Positions 12,941-21,523 of a DNA stretch of 26,335 bases are shown piece after piece (within the stretch, counting starts at the first letter, position 1; the number at the start of each line of letters is the position of its first letter). The stretch comes from a virus. A program made the translations under genes and the position numbers. The notes below the pieces were generated by a model. That model ran no database searches, was not told where the DNA came from, and saw only the letters and a program-made list of their open reading frames with translations. Location of the stretch: positions 1-26,335 of IMG/VR virus record IMGVR_UViG_3300037089_000069; one strand, 5' to 3'.

Positions 12941-13189
12941 ATGAATCAAGAACTAAAAACAAAGCCGATGCTGGTGGACAGCAAGGCGATCAAGGCCAAG
13001 CGCATCAACAAGAAAATATCGAAGTCGCTTAACCAGGAGTGGTCATTCGTGCCGAGTATTTACACGGACTTTCTACGGCTCGTCGGCAACGTGCTGCTGA
13101 TTCCCGTAGCGCTGGTGATCGGCCTGCTGGAAGGAATCCATGCCGGAGTTATCAAGGGGCTTGAAAAGACACTTTCAACGTATCGGTAA
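12941..13189 (+). CDS. Small basic protein with one membrane segment, unknown
   Basis: 82 aa, ATG 12941 behind AGGAAGGGAG. The N-terminal 30 residues are strongly basic (SKAIKAKRINKKISKS). A hydrophobic segment lies at about residues 44-66 (LRLVGNVLLIPVALVIGLLEG) and the tail is short and amphipathic. A basic N-terminus followed by a single membrane helix would place the charged part in the cytoplasm. The 77 bases before it carry no clear promoter. No family recognised. Confidence 0.6.
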   Translation: MNQELKTKPMLVDSKAIKAKRINKKISKSLNQEWSFVPSIYTDFLRLVGNVLLIPVALVIGLLEGIHAGVIKGLEKTLSTYR

Positions 13190-13194
13190 AGTGA

Positions 13195-13251
13195 CCTCTA
13201 CGTCGGTGTAGGGGCGAGAGGGAACCGGGCGCGGATGAACGCCCGGAACCC
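13195..13251 (+). promoter_or_regulatory. Two tandem RNA hairpins before the methyltransferase gene
   Basis: Hairpin 1 pairs CCTCTAC (13195-13201) with GTAGGGG (13208-13214), 7 pairs with one T-G wobble and a 6-base loop. Hairpin 2 pairs GGG-AA-CCGGGCG (13220-13231) with CGCCCGG-AA-CCC (13240-13251): 7 pairs, a 2x2 A/A internal loop and 3 more pairs, with an 8-base loop. Only TTTAAAAAGG follows, so termination would be weak. They lie about 20 bases before the GTG start and may tune its translation or stabilise the mRNA. Confidence 0.45.
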
Positions 13252-13269
13252 TTTAAAAAGGAGAGGGAA

Positions 13270-13995
13270 GTGAAACCATATTACCAAGAGGACGGGATTA
13301 CCATCTACCACGGAGATTGCAGGGACATCCTGCCGCACCTTGAGACGGTGGACTTGGTGCTGACCGATCCAATTTATGGCGTTGGTTTTAAATATGAATC
13401 TATCGAAGATACTCCTGAAAATTTTGACAAGACGGTGGTCCCTGTAATGAATAATCTTGCATCACGTTTCCCGATGGCTCTTTTTATGAGCATGAAACAA
13501 ATGAAAAAGGTTCCTGACTTTAAGTGGGTTCTTTGTTGGCATAAACCGGGTAGCACACGAAGAAACGCTGTCGGTGGTTGGTCTATTTGGGAGCCGATTT
13601 TCCTATATGGGAATGAGTGGCGGGTAGCAAATGACGCGATTACTCTTCCAGATTGCGTGAACCACGACAAAGGCAATGACCATCCGTGTCCAAAACCATT
13701 AAAACTCTTTAAATGGTTGTTATCGTTACATGACGGAAATGTCCTCGACCCCTTCATGGGTTCAGGAACAACCTTAGTAGCCGCTAAACAATTAGGACGC
13801 AAAGCCATTGGGATTGAGATTTGCGAGGATTATTGCCGGATCGCAGTAGAACGCCTTAAGCAGAATTGTTTTGATTTTTCCAGTGGATCAAATCCAAGAG
13901 AGGCATCGTATCACGAAAAACCTTCTCCATCTTTGGATGGCAGGAATCACACAACACAATTAAGTTTGATTGATGATGAGCATCGGAAGGATTAG
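13270..13995 (+). CDS. DNA N4-cytosine/N6-adenine methyltransferase with an altered C-terminus
   Basis: 241 aa, starting at GTG 13270 behind GGAGAGGG. Catalytic motif IV is TDPIYG (residues 32-37) and the AdoMet-binding motif I is DPFMGSGTT (160-168). Motif IV preceding motif I marks the beta-type order. CWHKPG, HPCPKPL and GIEICEDYC support the family. It would methylate A or C in a short DNA site, either to protect phage DNA from restriction or for regulation. After the usual end (ERLKQ, then NCFDF) about 35 residues run antisense to the HNH gene at 13856-14428. That tail seems to have arisen when the HNH gene arrived. A second methyltransferase C-terminus lies at 14468-14536. Confidence 0.85.
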   Translation: MKPYYQEDGITIYHGDCRDILPHLETVDLVLTDPIYGVGFKYESIEDTPENFDKTVVPVMNNLASRFPMALFMSMKQMKKVPDFKWVLCWHKPGSTRRNAVGGWSIWEPIFLYGNEWRVANDAITLPDCVNHDKGNDHPCPKPLKLFKWLLSLHDGNVLDPFMGSGTTLVAAKQLGRKAIGIEICEDYCRIAVERLKQNCFDFSSGSNPREASYHEKPSPSLDGRNHTTQLSLIDDEHRKD

Positions 13996-17862: not shown

Positions 17863-18546
17863 ATGCAGAGATATGAATTAGCCAAAGATGAAACTTATGT
17901 AGGCATACGGACATCCCAAAATGGCGATTACGTCCTATACTCCGACGCACTTGCCAATATTGAGCAATACCTCAAATATGGTGTGAATATCTGTGACCTT
18001 AAAGCCGAGATCGCCGAGTTGCAGTCCGCACTCGCCGAGCGCGACGAGAGGATACGGGGGCTGGAAGAGGCAGGATCAAAGGCTTACCATATCCCCCAGA
18101 AATACTCGGAGGCATTGGGAAAGGTCAAGGAACTCGAAGCGGATATTTCTAATAGTTATTCCGTCATTGAATCATTAGGCAATAGAAACCAAGCCCTGAA
18201 GGTGGAGAATGAGGGGTTGAAGGTAGAGTTAAAAGGATGTGAGGGGGATTATAAATTTGAGTATGAAAAACGCAAGGAACTCGAAGCGGAGAATGAGAGG
18301 TTGAAAGCATGGAAGACATCGTGGTTGTTGGATAAGCATTACGGATTAGTGCAGAAGGTACAGGAACTCGAAGCGGAGAAGGTTATTCTTGTGAATGACA
18401 TCAACTCGTCAACCACGACGTTTCTTGCATTGGAAGCCCGCATCAAGGAACTGACGGATGCGTTGGAGTGGGTACAGGCGCGTTATGATATCTACACGCC
18501 TGATGATGTTAAGAAAAAGGTCAATGCCGCGCTGGGGGAGAAATGA
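17863..18546 (+). CDS. Long coiled-coil protein with internal repeats
   Basis: 227 aa, ATG 17863 behind TGGAGGTGAGG. Residues 45-190 are nearly continuous heptad-type coiled coil. A KELEAEN/QELEAEK unit recurs, encoded by near-identical AGGAACTCGAAGCGGA sequences at about 18128, 18275 and 18362. The C-terminus (YDIYTPDDVKKKVNAALGEK) is a separate short motif. Similar phage proteins vary in coiled-coil length, and this one probably grew by internal duplication. A scaffolding or tethering role is possible. Confidence 0.6.
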   Translation: MQRYELAKDETYVGIRTSQNGDYVLYSDALANIEQYLKYGVNICDLKAEIAELQSALAERDERIRGLEEAGSKAYHIPQKYSEALGKVKELEADISNSYSVIESLGNRNQALKVENEGLKVELKGCEGDYKFEYEKRKELEAENERLKAWKTSWLLDKHYGLVQKVQELEAEKVILVNDINSSTTTFLALEARIKELTDALEWVQARYDIYTPDDVKKKVNAALGEK

Positions 18547-18854
18547 GGCGCCGGTCACCTACCCCAGAAGCCCTCTTGACCAGGTCCATACGGTCTTTAC
18601 TTAATGCCGCCGGGATATTCCATTACAAGAACCATGGAGGACTGGGATCTGCCCCTGGCGTCCCCGACATCGTCGGCTGCTACAAAGGCCGAATGATAGC
18701 GATCGAAGTCAAGGCTCCAAAGGGATACCTCAGCGACCATCAGATTGAATTTCTAAAGAGGATAAACGAGGCCGGCGGGCTGGCGTTTATGGCAAAGGAC
18801 ATCGACACGGTTATTGAGAAGCTCGGGCTTCAGGACAGGTTCTTAATAAGATGA
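18543..18854 (+). CDS. VRR-NUC domain nuclease
   Basis: 103 aa, ATG 18543 with GGGGGAGA upstream and an ATGA overlap. It matches the VRR-NUC branch of the PD-(D/E)XK nucleases: GVPDIVGCYKGR (D42), IEVKAPKG (E55, K57), a conserved Q67 in SDHQIEFLKRI, then GGLAFMAKDIDTVIEKL. Phage VRR-NUC proteins are thought to act on branched or flapped DNA, possibly resolving Holliday junctions. It is the last gene before a new promoter, closing the recombination block. Confidence 0.85.
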   Translation: MRRRSPTPEALLTRSIRSLLNAAGIFHYKNHGGLGSAPGVPDIVGCYKGRMIAIEVKAPKGYLSDHQIEFLKRINEAGGLAFMAKDIDTVIEKLGLQDRFLIR

Positions 18855-18862
18855 AAATCCCC

Positions 18863-18891
18863 TTGACTTTACGAAAAGCCGGGCGTATAAG
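18863..18891 (+). promoter_or_regulatory. Strong sigma70-type promoter
   Basis: TTGACT (18863-18868), a 17-base spacer, then TATAAG (18886-18891): 5/6 matches in each box at optimal spacing. The expected start near 18898 coincides with the first base of the long stem of the RNA described at 18898-19003. Confidence 0.7.
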
Positions 18892-18897
18892 GGAATT

Positions 18898-19003
18898 GCG
18901 AGGATGTAAAAGTGAGATTGAATAAAATAAAACCAGCGAATAGAAGCCCCTTTGAGAAAAAGATGATCTCACCGTCATCCTCGCGCTCACTGGGGCTTTT
19001 TTC
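18898..19003 (+). ncRNA. Candidate structured small RNA or attenuator leader with pseudoknot potential
   Basis: Stem 1a pairs GCGAGGATG (18898-18906) with CATCCTCGC (18976-18984), 9 perfect pairs. Stem 1b pairs GTGAGAT (18912-18918) with ATCTCAC (18966-18972), 7 perfect pairs. The A-rich loop holds AAGCCCC (18944-18950), complementary to GGGGCTT (18992-18998) just after stem 1, so a pseudoknot can form. Without stem 1 the same GGGGCTT makes a terminator helix before six Ts. The unit has its own promoter, ends in a terminator and precedes the replication gene at 19021. It could be a trans-acting sRNA or a cis attenuator. No known RNA family recognised. Confidence 0.6.
18944..19002 (+). terminator. 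Intrinsic terminator-like helix with T6
   Basis: AAGCCCC-TT-TGAG (18944-18956) pairs with CTCA-CT-GGGGCTT (18986-18998): 7 + 4 pairs around a 2x2 internal loop. An inner GATGA/TCATC hairpin (18962-18966 with 18975-18979) is possible. Six Ts (18997-19002) follow. It is mutually exclusive with, or pseudoknotted to, the 5' stem of the RNA. Confidence 0.55.
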
Positions 19004-19020
19004 GTTGGTGAAGATTATAT

Positions 19021-19713
19021 ATGAATAAGTCGCCTTGTTTCCCGATGTATCCATCAGATTTTTACGGAGATCCGAAGGTTAGGATAATGTCGCCGGACGC
19101 TAAAGCCTACTACGCCTTGCTCTTGATGAACATATGGGACTACGATACCCAGTATTCCATGCCTTCCGACGATGCGACCATCGCGAAAATTCTTGAAATA
19201 AATTTAGAAAAGTGGATGAAACTACGCGAAGAAATATTTTTATGTTTTACTGAGAAAAACGGAAGAATCACGTCACGCCGCCTAAAGCAAGAAAAGGACA
19301 AGCAAGTTAAGTATCGGAAAACACAATCAGATAAGGGAAAATTAGGAGGCCGTCCACAGAAAGCCGTAGCTTTACCGGAGCTTAACCACGGTGAACCCGT
19401 TGTAAAGCCTCCTAACCCTAACCCTAACCCTAACCCTAAAAAAGATAAAAAGACTTATGCGCTCGACTTTGAAGCTTTTTATCAAGCCTATCCAAAAAAG
19501 AAAGCAAAAGACGAAGCATGGAAAGCATGGAATAAAAGAAACGGAGATATGCCAGCCATTGAAATATTACTTGATGCTATAAAAAATCAAACACTTACGG
19601 AAGATTGGCAAAAAGAAAAAGGGAAATATATACCATTCCCGGCAACTTGGATTAACCAGGGCCGGTGGGCGGATGACGTTGGAGTTGTCAAAAAGGACAA
19701 GACATGGAATTAA
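19021..19713 (+). CDS. DUF1376-type replication protein, probable initiator or helicase loader
   Basis: 230 aa, ATG 19021. Residues 5-100 show the DUF1376 pattern: SPCFPMYPSDFYGDPKVRIM, then AKAYYALLLMNIWDY and a winged-helix-like core. A basic linker follows (KYRKTQSDKGKLGGRPQK), then a Pro-Asn run from telomere-like DNA (PNPNPNPNPK). The C-terminal domain has DFEAFYQAYPKKKAKDEAWK and PFPATWINQGRW, a pattern common to phage replication proteins that bind or load the DnaB-type helicase. The helicase lies just downstream. Expression is likely governed by the leader RNA structure. Confidence 0.75.
   Translation: MNKSPCFPMYPSDFYGDPKVRIMSPDAKAYYALLLMNIWDYDTQYSMPSDDATIAKILEINLEKWMKLREEIFLCFTEKNGRITSRRLKQEKDKQVKYRKTQSDKGKLGGRPQKAVALPELNHGEPVVKPPNPNPNPNPKKDKKTYALDFEAFYQAYPKKKAKDEAWKAWNKRNGDMPAIEILLDAIKNQTLTEDWQKEKGKYIPFPATWINQGRWADDVGVVKKDKTWN
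19411..19440 (+). repeat. Telomere-like repeat (CCTAAC)4-CCTAAA inside the replication gene
   Basis: Four exact CCTAAC units plus CCTAAA encode PNPNPNPNPK in frame. The opposite strand carries four GGG tracts with TTA loops, the arrangement known to fold into a telomeric G-quadruplex. Confidence 0.9.
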
Positions 19714-20012
19714 CAAAAGCAATCAGCGAAGATATATCAAAAGAGATTGAGTATTATTATTCAGATATAGGCGAGATGAACCGCCTTAAAATGAGATTTT
19801 CAGGAGATTTAATGAAGCAATGGAGTGACTACTTTATAAGATATGACATGGAAATGATAGCAGGATTAAGGGGGGATCAATTTAGACATGAAAAAAGACT
19901 TAGCGAATTACGAAGGACCGGACCGGGTCGTGCCAGCGTCGGAACTGGCGTTGAAGTTTGCGAACGAGCCGGACTGTTTAATCAACCTAAAATCTGGTCT
20001 CCCTACCCTTGA
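19704..20012 (+). CDS. Hypothetical protein overlapping the helicase gene
   Basis: 102 aa, ATG 19704, overlapping the replication gene by 10 bases. The first 60 residues (MELTKAISEDISKEIEYYYS, MRFSGDLMKQWSDYFIRYDM) look like a real helical protein. The last 42 residues lie in the +2-shifted frame over the helicase N-terminus and look composition-driven (RRTGPGRASVGTGVEV). The 125-base overlap is unusual here. The protein may be intact, or its natural end lost by mutation. No family recognised. Confidence 0.45.
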   Translation: MELTKAISEDISKEIEYYYSDIGEMNRLKMRFSGDLMKQWSDYFIRYDMEMIAGLRGDQFRHEKRLSELRRTGPGRASVGTGVEVCERAGLFNQPKIWSPYP

Positions 20013-20670
20013 TAAAGCCATGGGTGGGTTCAGGGACGGGGAGTTGATAACTATTTCAGGATATACTAAAAACGGCAAGACGCTCCTGGCTCAGACTTTA
20101 ACGGCATCTTTTATAGAGCAAAGGCACTTCCCGTTATGGTTTTCCTATGAGGTCCCAACACGGCAATTCATAAAGCAATTTCCGTTTGTGCCTCATCTGT
20201 TCATGCCGACTGAATTAAAGGCCCATGCTATGGATTGGGTAGAAGAACGGATACTTGAGTCGCTTCAAAAATTCAACACCAGGGCGGTATTTATCGACCA
20301 CCTACATTTCCTATTCGATCTCGGTCGGTCCCGAAACGCTTCCTTGGATATTGGGCAGGTGATTAGAAAGCTTAAAATGATCGCCATCCAGAACGAGATA
20401 GTGATTTTCCTGCTCTGCCATACCCAACAGCCGAAGGAAGGAAGCGAGGGGCTTGGTTACGAGAAAATCCGGGATTCATCTTTTGTTGCCCAGGAATCAG
20501 ACAGCGTGATCATGATCGCACGAAAGACGGAAGTAATGCCGAATTATGCAGAGGCAAGGGTGGAATTTCACCGGCGAACTGGCGTTATGAAAGAAATGGT
20601 TTATCTTGAGAAAAAAGGATGGTGGCTTACCGAAAGGAGTAACGAAGATGAAAAGAAAGCCGACGATTAG
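19888..20670 (+). CDS. DnaB-like replicative helicase (RecA-fold ATPase)
   Basis: 260 aa, ATG 19888 with AGGGGGGAT about 14 bases upstream. The C-terminal helicase domain is seen alone: GLPTLDKAMGGFRDGELITI, Walker A GYTKNGKT (residues 58-65), Walker B FIDHLH (135-140) and a later strand with CHTQQP (about 175-180). The RDSSFVAQESDSVIMIARK segment matches DnaB/RadA-like ATPases. It lacks the DnaB N-terminal domain and any primase. It should unwind DNA at forks, with the 19021 protein as likely loader, or act like the DnaB-like recombinases of phages. Confidence 0.8.
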   Translation: MKKDLANYEGPDRVVPASELALKFANEPDCLINLKSGLPTLDKAMGGFRDGELITISGYTKNGKTLLAQTLTASFIEQRHFPLWFSYEVPTRQFIKQFPFVPHLFMPTELKAHAMDWVEERILESLQKFNTRAVFIDHLHFLFDLGRSRNASLDIGQVIRKLKMIAIQNEIVIFLLCHTQQPKEGSEGLGYEKIRDSSFVAQESDSVIMIARKTEVMPNYAEARVEFHRRTGVMKEMVYLEKKGWWLTERSNEDEKKADD

Positions 20671-21199: not shown

Positions 21200-21369
21200 G
21201 CGACGACATTGACCGGCTGCCGATAAAATCAAAAGATAGGTATTTTATGCGTTATTACCAGGACATTATTGACAATAAAAGAGAAAGGTCAGATAGGGTG
21301 ATTGAGGAAATGGCGGATGCTTTAAAGGAGTATAAAAAGCTCTTACGAAAGAGAGGGGGAGAGAGATGA
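21196..21369 (+). CDS. Small charged helical protein
   Basis: 57 aa, ATG 21196 (ATGA overlap) behind GGAGGGGAGAG. It is rich in Lys, Arg, Asp and Glu (DNKRERSDRVIEEMADALKE) and probably one or two helices. No motif. Confidence 0.5.
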   Translation: MSDDIDRLPIKSKDRYFMRYYQDIIDNKRERSDRVIEEMADALKEYKKLLRKRGGER

Positions 21370-21458
21370 GCGATTTATCAACGGCAATTGTGATGCTTGG
21401 GCTTTTCGCCTTGATTGGGTTTACGTTATATTTGATTACAAAGGGGTTGGGAAGATGA
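21366..21458 (+). CDS. 30-aa single-span membrane peptide
   Basis: ATG 21366 overlaps the preceding stop (ATGA), with GAGGGGGAGAG upstream. The peptide MSDLSTAIVMLGLFALIGFT then LYLITKGLGR is one transmembrane helix with a basic C-terminus. It is too short for homology, but coupling and ribosome site support translation. Confidence 0.45.
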   Translation: MSDLSTAIVMLGLFALIGFTLYLITKGLGR

Positions 21459-21523
21459 CCAAGGTCTGCTCAAAGTGTGGGGTGATGATATTTAAACTTT
21501 TAAAAACAGGAGGAGAAAAATGA
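21455..21523 (+). CDS. 22-aa CxxC peptide, uncertain
   Basis: ATG 21455 overlaps the previous stop and its own TGA overlaps the next ATG, so both ends show ATGA coupling. It encodes MTKVCSKCGVMIFKLLKTGG then EK. CSKCG resembles half of a zinc ribbon. It may be a translated link to the next gene or a degraded zinc protein. Confidence 0.35.
   Translation: MTKVCSKCGVMIFKLLKTGGEK

Follow-up and report, generated by a model that had tools for sequence, protein, structure and literature searches.

Does the gap between the nuclease gene and the replication-initiation gene of this phage hold an RNA that controls replication, and if so, how would it act? The window is a virus record of 26,335 bases. 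It looks like a fragment of a podovirus-like phage genome, and its large terminase is ~50% identical to the terminases of epsilon15-like podoviruses. The candidate RNA region (18863-19003) is preceded on the + strand by a gene for a VRR-NUC / Holliday-junction-resolvase-like nuclease (18543-18854; Pfam PF08774, phrog_93). It is followed, also on the + strand, by a DUF1376-type replication initiation/primosomal gene (19021-19713) that matches phrog_9327 (E 6.5e-26), phrog_9474 and phrog_270, with PF07120 slightly under its cut-off. This initiator gene has a Shine-Dalgarno sequence GGTGA at 19007-19011 (+), and a DnaB-like helicase gene (19888-20670, +; PF03796) lies further 3′. Elsewhere, the otherwise tightly packed early region contains a 320-nt gap without a clear gene, at 21200-21519. 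Overall, 18863-19003 is best read as a leader that would act as a transcription attenuator for the phage replication genes, a reading to which we assign a probability of about 0.45.

A putative sigma-70 promoter, TTGACT-17-TATAAG (10/12), was found on the + strand at 18863-18891, with its -35 element TTGACT at 18863-18868, a 17-nt spacer and its -10 element TATAAG at 18886-18891. Transcription is predicted to start (+1) at 18898, where a 9-bp stem, S1, begins. The near-consensus promoter and the predicted start at the foot of the stem, both put forward in the preliminary description, are thus present as sequence features. The + strand of the window carries three sites scoring at least 10/12 against 2.85 expected, so the promoter by itself is not above chance; its weight comes from the predicted +1 falling at the foot of S1. 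The promoter may be used.

The 5′ strand of S1 (GCGAGGATG, 18898-18906) contains an AGGA Shine-Dalgarno motif and pairs with the 3′ strand CATCCTCGC at 18976-18984. A second stem, S2, is formed by GTGAGAT (18912-18918), which includes the GTG start of a 38-codon open reading frame, and ATCTCAC (18966-18972). All pairs of the 9-bp and 7-bp stems described previously were recovered (9/9 and 7/7). Further elements are X (GAAGCCCC, 18943-18950), the 5′ arm of a terminator or of a pseudoknot, and X′ (GGGGCTTT, 18992-18999), followed by a run of six Ts (18997-19002). The segment 18992-19002 would provide the 3′ arm and U-tract of an intrinsic terminator. An AAGCCCC/GGGGCTT pairing followed by six Ts had been reported; both are present, but X is 8 nt long rather than 7 (AAGCCCC corresponds to 18944-18950). 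The terminator hairpin is the strongest on the + strand of the window (-24.4 with T6; the next best, -19.3, has a poor T-run). It gains further pairs, TGAG/CTCA and GATGA/TCATC, the latter reusing part of the 3′ strand of S1. As in an attenuator, an intrinsic terminator is thus predicted between the promoter and the gene to be regulated.

The 106-nt stretch has a minimum free energy of -31.9 kcal/mol (z -4.03). None of 200 shuffled sequences was equally stable, and of the 1500 windows folded over the contig on either strand, at most a few rank ahead of it. Its architecture was also searched with a joint descriptor requiring a stem of at least 8 bp and, crossed with it, an X/X′ pairing (at least 6 bp) that abuts T5. 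This descriptor had a single match in the window and a single one in 150 Markov-randomised 26-kb strands; the loci of related phages that were searched with it gave just one more, at an unrelated place. Among the 106-nt folds of the window, a different one stands out most for its stability (13161-13266, - strand, z about -6); it lies in the gap ahead of a gene for a DNA methyltransferase at 13270.

Inverted repeats ahead of a replication initiator gene, together with possible CCTAAC iterons at 19411-19434, might also suggest that the stems act as DNA, as an operator or origin element, or that a plain operon terminator is accompanied by chance complementarity. However, the T-run abuts X′ exactly, the stems are nested and the random rate is low, all of which favours RNA; in addition, the arms are 47-69 nt apart, which is atypical of operators. 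Among the readings weighed here, this one appears the least probable.

Folding calculations support two competing structures. With nested pairing only, the pair probability is 0.997 for S1/S2 as compared to 0.003 for X/X′, so that S1/S2 wins at equilibrium. Forcing the terminator gives -27.0 kcal/mol for the full RNA as compared to -31.9 for the full-transcript fold, and the terminator hairpin alone gives -24.5 kcal/mol. The S1/S2 fold with X/X′ unpaired has an energy of -23.8, to which the X/X′ duplex would add -13.0 before any pseudoknot penalty. The computed exclusion between the S1/S2 fold and the terminator hairpin is incomplete, since X/X′ can pair as a pseudoknot. Such a pseudoknot would be energetically possible and comparable to the nested fold, without being favoured over it. 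The preliminary description had proposed alternative folds, stems or terminator, with a possible pseudoknot, and the computation agrees, with this qualification. When the transcript is folded as it grows, S1 is completed at position 18984, ahead of the synthesis of X′. Masking the 5′ strands of S1/S2, either up to the stop codon of a 24-codon open reading frame or at the GTG, makes the terminator the predicted fold.

These results can be combined into a model of attenuation. RNA polymerase coming from the 18863 promoter or from the upstream genes would reach the intrinsic terminator (18943-19002). The Shine-Dalgarno sequence of the initiator gene begins 5 nt past the T-run, and the initiator ATG follows that run at a distance of only 18 nt; this leaves no space for another promoter, so that transcription of the initiator gene must cross the terminator. 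The initiator and helicase genes would then be reached by read-through only. The loop strands of the terminator have complementary sequences in the 5′ half of the leader (S1/S2). When S1/S2 forms first, the terminator would be disfavoured, as X/X′ would then be limited to pseudoknot pairing, and read-through would be expected. Should the 5′ strands be masked, for instance by a ribosome on one of the two small open reading frames, by a protein or by an RNA, the terminator would fold and a ~105-nt RNA would be released. The masking event as trigger, termination at the hairpin and formation of the pseudoknot are model-based predictions.

We favour this attenuator because S1/S2 and the terminator are both strong and mutually exclusive, with S1 made before X′, and because masking flips the fold. 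The terminator is also the strongest of the + strand, the initiator and then the DnaB-like helicase lie downstream, and the architecture is rare by chance. On the other hand, X/X′ could still pair alongside S1/S2 as a pseudoknot, in which case S1/S2 may fail to prevent termination. The terminator could also be made irrelevant for the downstream genes by an antitermination system of the phage.

It had been stated that nothing in the arrangement codes for protein. This is unsafe, as two small open reading frames had been overlooked. The first, of 24 codons (MKIPLTLRKAGRIRELRGCKSEIE, 18851-18925, +), begins at an ATGA that it shares with the stop of the VRR-NUC gene and ends within the loop of S2. 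The second, of 38 codons (18912-19028, +), possibly spurious, starts with the GTG of S2, has its AGGA Shine-Dalgarno in S1, passes through the terminator and overlaps the start of the initiator gene. Neither matches any family in PHROGs. Both may be chance occurrences. Either could be a leader peptide, and the two would offer a means of operating the switch. The 24-codon frame is rightly placed for such a peptide, but it has neither a regulatory codon run nor homologues, and its start would fall outside the transcript if the 18863 promoter is used.

One or both frames might instead be real small genes or leader peptides in a mainly translated region, with the pairing serving as a ribosome-coupled element or simply as a terminator. 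The ATGA overlap, the AGGA suitably spaced before the GTG at 18912, the overlap of the 38-codon stop with the replication ATG, and the small protein genes found in the same gap of relatives (see below) point in this direction. Against this, there are no family matches, chance alone is expected to yield open reading frames of such lengths, and the 38-codon frame has a codon score below that of 97% of real-gene windows, inside the out-of-frame range. We consider this interpretation improbable. An elaborated form of the attenuator, in which ribosomes arriving from the preceding gene via the overlapping 24-codon frame, or else the pseudoknot, control entry into the replication genes, would make the onset of replication depend on translation of the early operon and would represent a new RNA class without known relatives. 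It is a speculative proposal, which we regard as slightly less probable still.

Homologues of the RNA were searched for by pattern, BLAST and covariance model; none was found in the viral, phage and plasmid collections or in a sample of 793 genomes, of which 395 belong to the phylum of genome G371 and 398 to that of genome G022. Exact and gapped pattern scans of viral contigs gave either no matches or matches that did not share the RNA on inspection: nine loci (L117-L125) merely carry other GGGGCTTTTT terminators, and one (L113) has the Shine-Dalgarno-GTG start alone in common. With blastn, only short chance matches to phages and plasmids were obtained. The covariance model, R1, which was built from a single sequence and reaches fairly close relatives only, returned weak matches only over the related loci and the 793 genomes. 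Two of them (L126, L127) appear to be A-rich chance matches, that in L127 covering an apparent coding start. A third (L073, E 0.03) lies 185 nt 3′ of a VRR-NUC match, over a CCTAAA repeat that is part of the initiator gene in other relatives.

Telomere-like CCTAAC/CCTAAA repeats of this kind occur at 19411-19434 of the window and at positions 1325 of L002, 3421 of L003, 1915 of L110 (minus strand) and 2423 of L073. Where checked (window, L002-L004, L110), they fall in the linker of the initiator gene. Because the CCTAA DNA motif is kept while the residue changes from PN to PK, the repeats may be origin iterons, beyond encoding a protein linker.

Using the DnaB-like protein as bait, no relatives were found. 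The initiator has relatives in L002-L004 (~52%) and L110 (50%), and the nuclease in L005 and L006 (~60%); the RNA is absent from all of these loci. The lack of homologues and the relatives that have the same replication gene without the RNA weaken the attenuator reading. The corresponding gap is occupied by an int-alpA RNA (RF02996) in two relative lineages, L002-L004 (413-477, 2509-2573 and 394-458, respectively) and L006 (3472-3541), by a zinc-finger open reading frame in L005, and by a small basic protein gene (66-aa open reading frame) in L110. These int-alpA RNAs precede a DUF1376-like gene, from which an HNH gene separates them in L002-L004, and do not have the integrase-alpA setting suggested by the name. 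The nuclease-initiator gap seems to be a recurrent slot for small RNAs.

The int-alpA RNAs, which Rfam places in the class of sRNA genes and which lie upstream of the DUF1376 gene, speak for another explanation, namely a stand-alone trans-acting phage sRNA, an RNA-coding "moron" cassette between two early genes, with the downstream genes served by antiterminated or leaky transcription. The promoter, the terminator and a start predicted at the base of S1 would make up a self-contained ~105-nt unit. However, no homologue was found in the collections searched, the promoter scores no better than chance, and antisense matches within the window reach 10 nt at most, which is the chance level. No convincing target was seen near gene starts, the -35 kcal/mol match at 19021 being the RNA's own X/X′. 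We hold such an sRNA to be rather unlikely, though it is the main alternative to the attenuator. The two options of the preliminary description, an attenuator-like leader and a stand-alone sRNA, stay the leading ones, both as predictions from sequence and folding; its interpretation is thus supported in part.

If the RNA is an attenuator, phage replication genes would be under the control of an RNA switch and not just of repressors and antitermination proteins, and the nuclease-initiator gap would be a recurrent small-RNA site in this phage group. Currently, the locus provides one plausible candidate without known relatives.

Finally, the candidate was compared with known systems. At the gathering threshold of Rfam, no riboswitch or sRNA family matched, and permissive thresholds gave nothing credible. 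The riboswitch-like option of the preliminary description is thus unsupported, there being no ligand logic either. The top permissive match, the SpF01 Streptococcus sRNA (RF02425), has similar AAGC...GCTTTTTT ends, but its 20.3 bits (E 3.2) against a gathering score of 55 correspond to chance. A ToxI-like RNA of a type III toxin-antitoxin system, in which a pseudoknot unit is repeated in tandem ahead of a ToxN gene, was rejected: the window holds a single copy and no toxin gene, and the downstream gene is a replication initiator. The RNA does not match the int-alpA model even at E up to 5, and its sequence and stems differ; it nevertheless resembles int-alpA as a small structured RNA with an outer stem and an internal domain, with a U-run in the family consensus, and its position corresponds to that of int-alpA in the matching gap of L002-L004 and L006.

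In the translation-coupled attenuators of the trp/his type, an upstream fold and a terminator exclude each other ahead of the regulated gene. The phage leader shares this arrangement, with a possible leader frame ending before the terminator. It differs in having no amino-acid codon run, in regulating replication genes and in its crossing arms, which permit a pseudoknot; its candidate leader frame is putative and may start before the +1 of the promoter. The C4-type immunity leaders of phages P4 and P1-P7 are short structured RNAs with premature termination ahead of replication genes. Here, no second complementary target segment above chance was found in the window and there is no Rfam match, but the candidate has in common with these leaders a short structured RNA and a predicted premature termination before phage replication genes.
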